DNA from: Acidobacteriota bacterium
GTDB lineage: Bacteria; Acidobacteriota; Thermoanaerobaculia; Multivoradales; Multivoraceae
NCBI GenBank assembly: GCA_003388555.1
Contig: QQVD01000034.1
Coordinates: 124,001-188,000 of the forward strand
DNA: 64,000 nt
Reading direction: 5' to 3'
The notes beneath the pieces were generated by a model that did not search any database, was not told the DNA's origin, and saw only the letters and a list, made by a program, of their open reading frames with translations. The position numbers and the translations under genes were made by a program. Shown here piece by piece: positions 21,943 to 26,083 of the stretch; the first letter of the stretch is position 1, and each line of letters begins with the position of its first letter.

Positions 21943-23466
21943 TCAGGGCACGGTGGCCGACCAGCGCGTCGTGTCGGTGGTCTCGAAGCCGTCGCCGAAC
22001 AGGCGCAGGGCCGCGACGACGTCGAGGAAGCCGTTGCCGTACAGGTTGTTCGGAACCGGCGGTGGCATGGGTCCGGGCACCGGGCAGTCGTTGCCGACGT
22101 TCAGGCGCGGGAAGGCGGAGCGATGGAGCACCTCGCGGGTCGCCACGACCTGACCGCGCAGCTCGGGGCGGGCCTGCCAGATCAGGGCCACCGCCCCGGT
22201 CACGTGTGGCGTCGCCATCGAGGTGCCGGTGAGCAGGCCGAACCCGCCGCCGGGGAACGAGGACTGGATGTCGGTGCCTGGCGCCACCAGATGTGGGCGG
22301 ATGCCGGAGCCGTCGATGTTGGGTCCACGGCTGCTGTAGTCGCCGAGCGCGGCGTGGCGGTCGGTGGGATCGGTGCCGCCGATCGCGATGAGGTTGGCGT
22401 AGGTCGCCGGATCGAAGACGGATCCGCAGGTCGGACCGGCGTTGCCCGCCCCCGCGGCGGCGAAGATGCCGGCGCTCTCGAGGTTGGCGAAGGCGGTCTG
22501 CAGGCCGCAGAAGGGACAGATGTAGGAGTGGTTGGTGACGTCCGGCGCCAGGTCGGGATCGGGGTTCTGGCCGGCCAGGTCCGTCGGTGCGAGGAAGAAC
22601 TGCAGACAGGTGAGGATGGTCGCGGCGCTGGCGCCGGGGCCGAGGCCTCGGCAGTGGATCCACTCGGCACCGATGGCGACGCCGAAGACCGAGCTGTCCG
22701 TGCTGCCCACCGCGGTGCCGGTGACGTGGGTGCCGTGCCCGTTGCTGTCGACCGGTGTCAGGCTGCCGTCGCTGCTCGGGTCGAGCCAGTTGTAGTCGTG
22801 CACGCCGTTCGAGCCGCGATACTTCTCCGTCAGCCCGGGGTGCTGGTGGTCGGCGCCGCTGTCGAGCACGCCGACCACGAGGCCGGCGCCGGTGATGCCC
22901 AGATCGTGCAGCTGGTCGGCGCCGATGGCGTGCACGTTCCAGCGCACGATCCCGCGGCTCGCCTCCTCGGGATCTCCGGATCCGGGCGCCGCGGCGTAGC
23001 CGGGCAGGGCATCCGGGAGGAAGGCGGGGCGCACCGGCTCGAGTCGCGCCACGTCGCCGCGAGCGGCGAGCTCGTCGAGATCGGCGAGGGAGATGGAGCG
23101 CCCCGACGGCGCTTCGACCAGGAGTTGATTGATGACGAAGTAGCTGCTGACCTCGAGGCCTCGATCCGTCAGTAGCCCCTGGAGCGGGGCCTGGGTGCGC
23201 TCGGCCGTGGCGCGCAGGGTCTCGAAGACGTAGCGGGCCTTGAGCCGCTTCTCGGAGAGAGCTGCGGCAGCCGAGAGATCGGCCTGCTCGGCGAGCACCA
23301 CGAAGAAGCGATCGAGGCTGCCCGCCCGCGCACTGTCGCGCAGCTCGGGATCGATCTTGTCGCCCGGACCCTGTGCGGCGCCCGGGGCGATGGTGGTGAA
23401 GGACAGGATCAGGACGAGGGCAAGAAGCGGGACCGAACCACGACGCGGAACGGCGCTGGGCGACAA
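21943..23466 (-). CDS. Secreted subtilisin-family serine protease (S8)
   Basis: A 507-residue secreted protease precursor. TTG 23466 is preceded by AAGGGAG and gives a signal peptide with a hydrophobic core VPLLALVLILSF and cleavage near APGAAQ. A pro-region like inhibitor I9 covers about residues 40-150. The catalytic triad is Asp202 (GVLDSGADHQ), His244 (NGHGTHVTG) and Ser416 (GTSMATPHV), with the oxyanion Asn in AGAGNAGP. The extreme C-terminus DGFETTDTTRWSATVP recurs in the LamG protein at 60794 and looks like a shared tail. A longer reading frame upstream of the TTG is not protein-like. Confidence 0.88.
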   Translation of the reverse strand: MSPSAVPRRGSVPLLALVLILSFTTIAPGAAQGPGDKIDPELRDSARAGSLDRFFVVLAEQADLSAAAALSEKRLKARYVFETLRATAERTQAPLQGLLTDRGLEVSSYFVINQLLVEAPSGRSISLADLDELAARGDVARLEPVRPAFLPDALPGYAAAPGSGDPEEASRGIVRWNVHAIGADQLHDLGITGAGLVVGVLDSGADHQHPGLTEKYRGSNGVHDYNWLDPSSDGSLTPVDSNGHGTHVTGTAVGSTDSSVFGVAIGAEWIHCRGLGPGASAATILTCLQFFLAPTDLAGQNPDPDLAPDVTNHSYICPFCGLQTAFANLESAGIFAAAGAGNAGPTCGSVFDPATYANLIAIGGTDPTDRHAALGDYSSRGPNIDGSGIRPHLVAPGTDIQSSFPGGGFGLLTGTSMATPHVTGAVALIWQARPELRGQVVATREVLHRSAFPRLNVGNDCPVPGPMPPPVPNNLYGNGFLDVVAALRLFGDGFETTDTTRWSATVP

Positions 23467-23642
23467 GATGCAGGCTCCCTTGGAAGACAACGAAGCAACG
23501 CTCTGGAAAGCAGAGCGCGGGAAGCTAGCACGCGCGCCTCGGGGCACGGAAGAGGGACGTTCAGGGGCACCTGAGCGATCCGAGGCGACCAGCGCCGCCG
23601 CCGTCGGGTCGCGCCGTGGGGCTTGCAGGCGCCGACCGGTCG

Positions 23643-23996
23643 TTACCGGGCGGGGGCCGTCACCCCAGTGCTGCCCGAGCCCTCGCGATCGAACTGCATC
23701 AGCTCGATCGGGGCGCCGTCGACCTCGATGAAGGCGACGGTGAGGCCCTTCGAGGGGGAGTTGGGTTCGATGATCACCTTCTGCCCGGCGAGCGCCGCCT
23801 CCAGGTCGTCGACCTCGAACGCGGCGTGTGCCGTGGTCTTCACCAGTTTGGGGTAGGGCGCGTCGTCCCAGAAGCGCATCCACTGGATGCCGAACAGAGT
23901 CCTCTCGTGATCCGAGACGGTCATCCGCAGCTGAGGCAGGTCGATCTCACCGGCGAAACGCCGACGCGTCGGGATGCCGAGGTGGTGGAACTTCAT
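23643..23996 (-). CDS. VOC (glyoxalase-fold) family protein
   Basis: A 117-residue single VOC-fold protein. It begins MKFHHLGIPT and includes HAAFEVDDLEAALAGQKVI and the end of the second module, VAFIEVDGAPIELMQFD, where His and Glu are likely metal ligands. VOC proteins include glyoxalases, dioxygenases and antibiotic-binding proteins; the size fits a small homodimeric enzyme or binding protein, and the substrate is unknown. It lies 82 bp downstream of the selenoprotein gene on the same strand and may be co-transcribed. Confidence 0.8.
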   Translation of the reverse strand: MKFHHLGIPTRRRFAGEIDLPQLRMTVSDHERTLFGIQWMRFWDDAPYPKLVKTTAHAAFEVDDLEAALAGQKVIIEPNSPSKGLTVAFIEVDGAPIELMQFDREGSGSTGVTAPAR

Positions 23997-24078
23997 GGCC
24001 GTTTGCGACGCCGCGACCGTCGCCAGGCCGAGTCGCCCGAGCCGCCTGACGCTGCCGGGGGCCTGTCGGTCCTCGTGG

Positions 24079-24744
24079 CTACGCCTGCCGGCGCTCCTTC
24101 CAGGCGTCGAGGAAGCTCTTGGCCATCGCCGCGTGGCGCTTGATCTCGTGGCGCGACTCGGCGTGCTCGATGCGCTGCGCCAGCGCGATGGCGCCGAAGC
24201 GGTTGCCGTTCATCAGTGGCACGAAGGCCTGCGGCGAGAAGGCCCCGGAGAGGGCGTCGGAGTCCTCGTCCGGAATCGCGACCTGTGGCGACCATGGCGC
24301 TGGGACGTCGATCGCCGGCAGGTCCTCGGACTCGAGGTCCTCGAGCACGTCGTCGTCGTGCACCCGGTCGGCGAAGTCACGACTGGTCTCGCGCACGAGC
24401 TCGCGGCCTCGTGGAGAGATCACCAGCAGCGCCGGTAGCGCGATGCCGCCGCGCTCGTCGGCGTTCCACAGTTCGAGCGGCTGCAGCACCGCCTCGCCGC
24501 CAGGATCGGTGGCGACCTTGAACGGCAGCCTCCAGCGCCGCGCCAGGGCGGCGCTACGCTCGGGCGAGTCGACCGAGAGGGCGACGATCTCGGCGCCGGC
24601 GCGGGCGATGCGCTTCTCCTGATTCGCCAGCCGGACCAGCTGGCCACAACAGTAGGGTCACCAGTCGCCGCGGAAGGTGACCAGGAGGACGGCGGCGTCG
24701 GTGTCGCCGCGCCGTTCGGCCAGAACGCGCTGCAGGGCCTGCAT
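24079..24744 (-). CDS. Peroxiredoxin-like selenoprotein (TGA read as selenocysteine)
   Basis: A 221-residue thioredoxin-fold protein only visible if the in-frame TGA at 24658-24660 is read as selenocysteine. Residues 1-28 lead to FRGDW, then Sec29, then PYC (U-P-Y-C), matching the RGxWCPYC active site of peroxiredoxin-like (AhpC/TSA) proteins, with Sec replacing the peroxidatic Cys and Cys32 as partner. The frame continues without a stop: CGQLVRLANQEKRIARAGAE, VALSVDSPERSAALARRW, GGIALPALLVISPRGREL. There is no internal ATG or GTG between the TGA and codon 86, so the downstream part cannot easily be a separate gene. A SECIS-like hairpin follows the TGA. Likely role: selenium-dependent thiol peroxidase or reductase in the cytoplasm. 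A nonsense mutation or base error is the alternative. Standard callers would annotate only the 136-residue remnant 24079-24489. Confidence 0.82.
24626..24644 (-). promoter_or_regulatory. Bacterial SECIS-like hairpin
   Basis: On the minus strand, 16 nt from the start of the TGA, GCCAGC and GCTGGC pair perfectly (24639-24644 with 24626-24631). The enclosed loop UGGUCCG can close by a U-G pair to leave GGUCC. In E. coli fdhF the SelB-binding loop contains GGUC at nearly the same distance (its GGU occupies nt 22-24 counted from the U of UGA; here nt 24-26). This is the structure expected for SelB-directed selenocysteine insertion. Confidence 0.72.
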
Positions 24745-24823
24745 CGGCTCACAGTAGCAGAGGCCTGCATGCCGCCGTCGGGATGGCCGCGGCGCACTGA
24801 CGTAGAGTGCTAGCCCTTCCGCC

Positions 24824-26083
24824 ATGAACCGCGCCATCGTCTTCGTCCTCGTCACCGTCCTGGTCGATGTGATCGGCCTCGGGATCATCATCCCGGTGAT
24901 GCCGGTGCTGATCCAGGAGCTGACCGGCGAGGGGCTCGATCGGGCCGCGATCTACGGCGGCTGGCTGCTCTTCCTCTACGCCCTGCTGCAGTTCTTCTTC
25001 GCGCCGATCCTCGGCGGCCTGAGCGACCGCTTCGGCAGGCGGCCGGTGCTGCTCCTGTCGCTGTTCGCCTTCGGAATCGACTATGCGCTGATGGGCCTGG
25101 CGCCCAGCCTCGGCTGGCTCTTCCTGGGACGCGCCATCGCCGGCGCGGCAGGCGCCAGCGTGACCACCGCCAACGCCTACATCGCCGACGTCACGCCGGC
25201 CGAGAAACGGGCGGCGAACTTCGGCCTGATCGGCGCCGCCTGGGGGGTCGGCTTCGTCATCGGTCCGGTGCTCGGGGGCTTGCTCGGCGAGCTCGGTCCG
25301 CGGGTGCCGTTCTTCGCCTCGGCGGCACTGGCGCTGGCCAACGTCGCCTACGGCTTCTTCGTCCTGCCCGAGACCCTGCCGCCCGAGAAGCGGCGACGCT
25401 TCGACTGGAGGCGGGCCAACCCGGTGGGCTCGCTGGTGCGCATGGCGAGCCATCCCGTCCTCGGCTCGCTGATCGGCGTCCTGGTGCTCTACCAGATCGC
25501 CCACGATGCGAATCCCAGCACCTGGAGCTACTACACGATGGAGCGGTTCGGCTGGAGCGAGCGCGACGTCGGGCTCTCGCTGGGAGTCGTCGGCCTGTCG
25601 ATCTCGGTGGTCTACGGGGCGCTGGTCGGGCCGATCGTCCGCCGTCTCGGTGAGCAGCGCACGGTGGTCTTCGGTCTGCTCCTGATGGCCACCGGCTTCT
25701 TCGGCTACTCGCTGGCCACCCGCAGCTGGATGATGATCGCCTTCATCTTCCCGTTCGCGCTCGGTTGCGTGGCGATGCCGGCGCTGCGCGGGATGATGGC
25801 CAATCGCGTCGAGGCCGACGAGCAGGGCGAGCTGCAGGGGGCTCTCACCAGCCTCGCCAGCCTGACCGCGATCGGGGCGCCGCTGCTGATGACCCGGCTC
25901 TTCGGCGTCTTTGCCGCCGACGACGCGCCGATCTACTTCCCCGGCATGGCCTTCTTCGTCGCCGGTGCGCTGCTGGTCGGCGCCAGCCTCTGGTTCCTGC
26001 GCGCCCGGGCGCGACTCCCGGCGCCGGTGACCCCCGCGGCCGACATCGTCGCCGAGGGAGCCGGTCCGGCGGCGACGCTCTGA
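24824..26083 (+). CDS. MFS transporter, TetA/tetracycline-efflux-like
   Basis: A 419-residue 12-helix major facilitator. The start [20 protein letters not shown] and motif [19 protein letters not shown] are typical of the Tet/Mdr proton-antiport drug exporters (DHA1). Motif C is visible as [16 protein letters not shown]. In this family the substrate can be tetracycline or many other compounds, and chromosomal copies like this one need not give resistance. It is divergent from the selenoprotein gene, the two starts being only 79 bp apart. Confidence 0.9.

Follow-up and report, generated by a model that had tools for sequence, protein, structure and literature searches.

A probable peroxiredoxin-like UxxC selenoprotein with a helical C-terminal extension in an Acidobacteriota genome

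A gene on the minus strand of a 64,000-nucleotide stretch of an Acidobacteriota contig (the window) is, judged from its sequence, almost certainly a genuine bacterial selenoprotein gene, in which the UGA at codon 29 would be read as selenocysteine (Sec) through SelB and a hairpin. Its product is very probably a Sec-containing redox protein. The reading frame begins at ATG 24744 and ends at a TAG stop at 24081-24079, and UGA 29 is the sole stop within the 221 codons. The UGA is found in the context AVLLVTFRGDW-U-PYCCGQLVRLANQ and forms the motif RGDW-U-PYCC. An earlier sequence-only reading had placed the gene at 24079-24744 with an in-frame TGA in RGDW-U-PYC; these coordinates are exact and the motif is present at codon 29, and only the strand had to be added. 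That reading had also expected ordinary gene calling to shorten the gene, which proved correct, since the standard ORF listing contains in this frame only a 136-aa piece that starts at GTG 24489. Standard annotation would thus cut short a redox gene that has many UGA-containing relatives (26 alignment rows). Inspection by eye revealed no ribosome-binding site before ATG 24744. The weight given to the UGA comes from four lines of evidence: a TGA that is kept in two orthologues, the alignment of Cys with the UGA, the comparison of the hairpin in Sec and Cys forms, and the presence of Sec machinery in the genome. In the proposed mechanism, SelB, bound to the hairpin just past codon 29, would bring Sec-tRNA to the UGA, and the ribosome would continue to the TAG and produce a 221-residue protein that features a thioredoxin-fold AhpC/TSA domain followed by a helical tail. 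The features of the gene are listed in Table 1.

Table 1. Positions in the window of the selenoprotein gene and its features
Feature	Position	Strand	Evidence
Selenoprotein reading frame, 221 residues and TAG stop, one in-frame UGA	24079..24744	-	ORF reading; two full-length orthologues
UGA codon 29, predicted Sec	24658..24660	-	TGA at same column in both orthologues; Cys in 5/5 tail-bearing Cys homologues
Cys32, partner of Sec29 in UxxC	24649..24651	-	Invariant in 8/8 rows
SECIS-like hairpin, 19 nt, 8 bp with GUC loop; GGUC at 24637-24634	24626..24644	-	Folding and comparison
AhpC-TSA (PF00578) thioredoxin-fold domain, residues 17-113	24406..24696	-	54.8 bits, cut-off 26; predicted model
C-terminal extension, approximately residues 140-221: poorly predicted linker and two long helices	24082..24327	-	Alignment; AlphaFold2 model

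Matches to the protein at E 0.001 or better were found in 68 of 98 related genomes, mostly partial and to other AhpC/TSA genes. Besides the window's own, the only near-full-length matches are from genomes G002 (63% identity) and G026 (56% identity), and both of these orthologues carry TGA at the same codon as UGA 29, which makes a sequencing error or a fresh mutation very unlikely. Within the order, a profile search at E 1e-20 matched 3 of 72 genomes. A second profile, built with the Cys homologues included, had matches at E 1e-25 in 43 of the 396 genomes sampled from the phylum. These 396 are an even draw from a larger group, with at most seven candidates scored per genome, and in this search only the window's genome, G002, and G026 have a match that extends past position 179 of the 244 model positions, into the helical tail. 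A scan of viral contigs found no relative. The three orthologues are identical at 25 consecutive positions around the UGA (residues 18-42), and most of their nucleotide differences are at third codon positions, in the 11 codons compared on the 5' side of the UGA as well as in the 109 on the 3' side. In the 3' part the three orthologue pairs differ at codon positions 1/2/3 by 24/22/62, 28/21/62, and 39/18/64, so that, at the sequence level, coding constraint persists downstream of the UGA. These results bear on the idea of a decayed gene or a sequencing error, with the UGA either a real stop or a Cys codon that was read wrongly. A single stop that interrupts a frame usually points to such an event, and the genome is a 74-contig assembly. 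However, the presence of this TGA in two further genomes of the order at these identities, the third-position bias of the differences on both sides of the UGA, and the third positions that are frozen over the hairpin (see below) make this explanation highly improbable.

Relatives with Cys in place of Sec were found in a scan of GTDB genome contigs, which located relatives at 89 places; the best 80 of these were kept. The frames of 13 of the 80 kept loci, in addition to the two orthologues (L051 and L052), were read for the C-terminal extension, which is present in five Cys forms and was not seen in the other eight loci. The five are L053-L056, from Rubrobacter and Rubrobacteraceae metagenome-assembled genomes, and L069, from an uncultured actinobacterium, and they share 26-31% identity with the protein. 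Their frames are continuous and all five have a Cys aligned to U29, as a comparison with Cys homologues at position 29, proposed by the sequence-only reading, would have it. Since GDWCPYC was one of the two patterns used, the scan is biased towards Cys forms, and the ratio of Sec to Cys in it is not a fair estimate. SelA was detected in three of the five genomes with a tail-bearing Cys form (G098 with L053, G101 with L056, and G102 with L069), thus Cys in these proteins is not simply forced by the absence of Sec. With tail-bearing Cys forms in Rubrobacteraceae and Sec forms in this order, the contribution of Sec to one enzyme can be compared cleanly. The continuity of the five Cys frames also argues against two short products, one ending at codon 29 as a regulatory stop and one made by a restart downstream, for example at GTG 24489. 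The 136-aa ORF from this GTG does exist, but a product started at that codon would be without the half of the domain that holds the active site, including the stretch that is identical in the three orthologues, and such an arrangement is the least probable of those considered. On the strength of the TGA conservation, the third-position bias, and the continuous Cys homologues, the pseudogene, sequencing error, and restart explanations were rejected. A code change in which UGA encodes Trp was set aside as well, as the genome has a tRNA-Sec gene and the homologues carry Cys at this position.

The sequence-only reading had described a hairpin with GGUC 3' of the UGA, and this element is present in a form that agrees with published limits. 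Bacterial SECIS elements are described as having a loop of 3-9 nt, a stem of 4-16 bp, a G in the first two loop positions, a spacing of 16-37 nt, and a minimum free energy of -7.5 or lower (PMC13188914, Fig. 2 legend). The hairpin at 24626-24644 has the GUC loop of 3 nt with G first, 8 bp, a UGA-to-loop spacing of 21 nt, and a folding energy of -12.4 kcal/mol; an alternative fold has 6 bp and the loop UGGUCCG. Taken alone the hairpin is not significant (z of -1.10, with 28 of 200 shuffles folding as well), 9.7% of synonymous variants fold as well as this gene's hairpin, and the SECIS rule by itself is weak, as it is passed by 201 of the 1022 TGAs in the window (19.7%), UGA 29 included. The Rfam SECIS_1 model gave no match here and none in 14 control genomes either, so this result is uninformative, and a search of 23700-25100 with all of Rfam, allowing E values up to 10, produced four matches, none of which reaches its gathering score.

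Comparison among relatives is more informative. A motif search of loci L010-L039 and L051-L130 yielded 28 W-U-P-x-C rows, which become 26 after the removal of two duplicate contigs, and 83 W-C-P-x-C rows. The agreement of the 26 rows at the UGA codon is by selection, given that the motif was used to choose them. Most of the 83 Cys rows belong to distant organisms, and they too were chosen by motif, regardless of whether a gene is annotated at the site. The SECIS rule, applied with four constraints, is passed by 20 of the 26 UGA rows (six fail) vs 2 of the 83 Cys rows, and the mean folding energy is -11.6 kcal/mol in the 28 UGA rows vs -5.2 kcal/mol in the Cys rows. Relative to synonymous variants the mean z is -0.95 for the UGA rows (n = 26) and 0.05 for the Cys rows (n = 83), with a Mann-Whitney p of 2.8e-7 for rows that are not independent; single rows that beat 95% of their own synonymous variants number 1 of 26 and 2 of 83, respectively. 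The helix also covaries. The covariation score in the 26 UGA rows is 0.308, compared with at most 0.128 for slid helices, and it was reached by 0 of 500 shuffles, counts that are not probabilities since the rows are related. In the fixed helix 76% of the cells of the 26-row alignment are paired, and the column pairs 18-34 and 19-33 show exchanges between G-C and C-G. Two of the five covariation measures do not rise above the shuffles (two-sided-change pairs, 198 of 500; further pair types, 284 of 500), the pair 17-35 is formed in only 3 of the 26 UGA rows, and RNAalifold alone retains four pairs of the helix. Additionally, among identically coded residues, the third positions are alike in the three orthologues in 6 of 8 codons over the hairpin (codons +4 to +11), vs 2 of 10 upstream (codons -11 to -1) and 11 of 50 in codons +12 to +109, or 13 of 60 pooled (Fisher p = 0.005, codons +1 to +3 left out). 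With a covarying SECIS helix inside coding sequence, these sequences are well suited to testing selenoprotein finders.

The genome of the window (6.8 Mb, 74 contigs, 98.76% complete) encodes the machinery that Sec insertion would use. Profile searches found SelA with 329.8 bits (cut-off 22.8), SelB with 315.4 bits (cut-off 242.25) over model positions 2-581 of 581, and SelD with 228.3 bits (cut-off 125). A tRNA-Sec gene with the anticodon tca was recognised by both Rfam and ARAGORN, with 70.1 bits vs a cut-off of 47. Weaker matches below the cut-off were also obtained (10 of 11 for tRNA-Sec, 10 of 11 for SelB, and 2 of 3 for SelD), and the control genomes behave alike; among the 14 control genomes tRNA-Sec was over the cut-off in five, and SelB, SelD, and SelA in two each. 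The full set of selA, selB, selD, and tRNA-Sec (tca) that the sequence-only reading had implied is therefore in the genome, and with both selB and selC found its selenoprotein claim stands. SelA is over the cut-off in 66 of the 72 genomes of the order, with a match in 28 of 28 genera, and Sec use looks near-universal in the order when judged by SelA alone, SelB and tRNA-Sec having been searched within the order in the window's genome only. No paper on Sec use in this order was found in the open-access literature, which is a weak absence; for the phylum, Sec use is already published, an Acidobacteriota genome with three known selenoprotein genes being listed in PMC12013277.

In addition to the AhpC-TSA match, the protein passes the cut-off of Redoxin (PF08534) with 32.9 bits vs 26.6; the AhpC-TSA score is the higher of the two. 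The AlphaFold2 model, built from eight rows, features a thioredoxin-fold core and has a mean pLDDT of 79.9 and a pTM of 0.78 (the mean pLDDT of the other four models is 68 to 71). All Pfam and NCBIfam matches end at residue 114 or earlier and leave a tail of approximately 80 residues uncovered, in which helices are predicted at residues 171-191 and 195-220 and the linker at 159-167 is poorly predicted. Among the relatives inspected, this tail is common to the Cys homologues of Rubrobacteraceae and of one actinobacterium. At the other end, the N-terminal segment VGxxxPxFEL of the Cys homologues is absent and the protein starts 17 residues before the first strand. The Rubrobacteraceae and actinobacterial homologues therefore resemble the protein in GDWCPYC and in the C-terminal extension and differ from it by Cys in place of Sec and by a longer N-terminus.

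Prx-like thiol:disulfide oxidoreductase selenoproteins with PF00578 and UxxC are a known group (PMC13188914, Table 1; PMC1088965), and from its sequence the protein joins this group, with a putative activity. It shares the AhpC/TSA domain (PF00578), UxxC rather than TxxU with an in-frame UGA, a bacterial SECIS after the UGA, aligned Cys homologues, and a host with Sec machinery, and it is unlike the members as described in these sources in its short N-terminus and its helical C-terminal extension of approximately 80 residues. The Redoxin family selenoprotein (PF08534; PMC13188914, Table 1) also features UxxC, and this likeness was drawn by motif and domain score. The SelL-related redox protein NF040769 matches residues 17-82 with 20.8 bits vs a cut-off of 120, and the protein is not a member. 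As a further member of a known selenoprotein group the gene is real but rather unremarkable, and the helical tail is its unusual part. It might be, at somewhat less than an even chance, that the gene, together with the orthologues in G002 and G026, founds a separate selenoprotein subfamily, in which a Prx-like UxxC domain lost its N-terminal segment and carries a helical-hairpin tail, with the Cys counterpart surviving in Rubrobacteraceae, in an order where the Sec trait looks near-universal by SelA alone. A search of the open-access literature found no paper on the tail-bearing form, again a weak absence.

There are two ways to assign the chemistry of Sec29 and Cys32. In sequence alignments UPYC is matched to CPHC of ResA and to SPVC of peroxiredoxin Q. 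Used as a single sequence, the protein finds its best PDB match in a ResA CPHC variant (3c71), which has no Sec and matches only residues 19-114; in this match U29 falls on the first Cys of the CxxC. The alignment with Aeropyrum peroxiredoxin Q places U29 on the Ser of SPVC and Cys32 on the Cys of that motif, which we take to be the peroxidatic Cys of true peroxiredoxins. This alignment would suit a selenoprotein in which Cys32 attacks peroxide and Sec29 is the resolving residue, as would the Foldseek results, in which the best 50 of 1072 matches are mostly peroxiredoxins and the ResA variant is at rank 42. Such an assignment is unlikely, however, as the best PDB match puts U29 on the first Cys and as Sec occupies the position where true peroxiredoxins (TxxC/TxxU) have Thr or Ser three residues before the peroxidatic Cys or Sec. 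In UxxC proteins, moreover, it is normally Sec that attacks. Because the UGA takes the place of the first Cys in CxxC, where true peroxiredoxins have Ser or Thr, peroxidase activity is not implied. The term peroxiredoxin-like used in the sequence-only reading thus holds as a fold label and not beyond, as U29 replaces the first Cys of a thioredoxin-type CxxC. A thiol-disulfide-type Sec/Cys cycle is most likely. In this cycle Sec29 would most likely be the nucleophile that attacks a disulfide, peroxide, or similar substrate, Cys32 would close a selenenyl-sulfide, and a thioredoxin-type reductant would reopen it. The tail may serve in docking or dimerisation.

A Pfam scan covered eight ORFs in the gene neighbourhoods, three in the window, three near the G002 copy, and two near the G026 copy, and no clear conserved gene context emerged among them. 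In the window a divergent MFS transporter (24824-26083, plus strand) adjoins the gene, a 117-aa downstream ORF has no Pfam match at E 1e-5, and a subtilase (PF00082, 139 bits; 21943-23544 as scanned, minus strand) is about 0.5 kb away. The ORFs near the G002 copy are GGDEF, beta-lactamase-fold, and sulfatase proteins, and those near the G026 copy include DUF6503/DUF1838, with a subtilase about 2 kb away. The occurrence of a subtilase near both the window gene and the G026 copy is perhaps a coincidence.

The genome of the window has 14 AhpC-TSA places, four of which, this gene among them, have an in-frame TGA. Two further AhpC/TSA frames in this genome, L133 (G000:C21) and L134 (G000:C31), feature RGHW-U-PYC and RGGW-U-PFC. 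A ResA-like frame, the fourth of these places (L164:1501-1836, minus strand; G000:C6:196805-197140), has an in-frame TGA in WASW-U-GC and is likely a selenoprotein; it resembles the NCBIfam WAxxUGC type by motif only.
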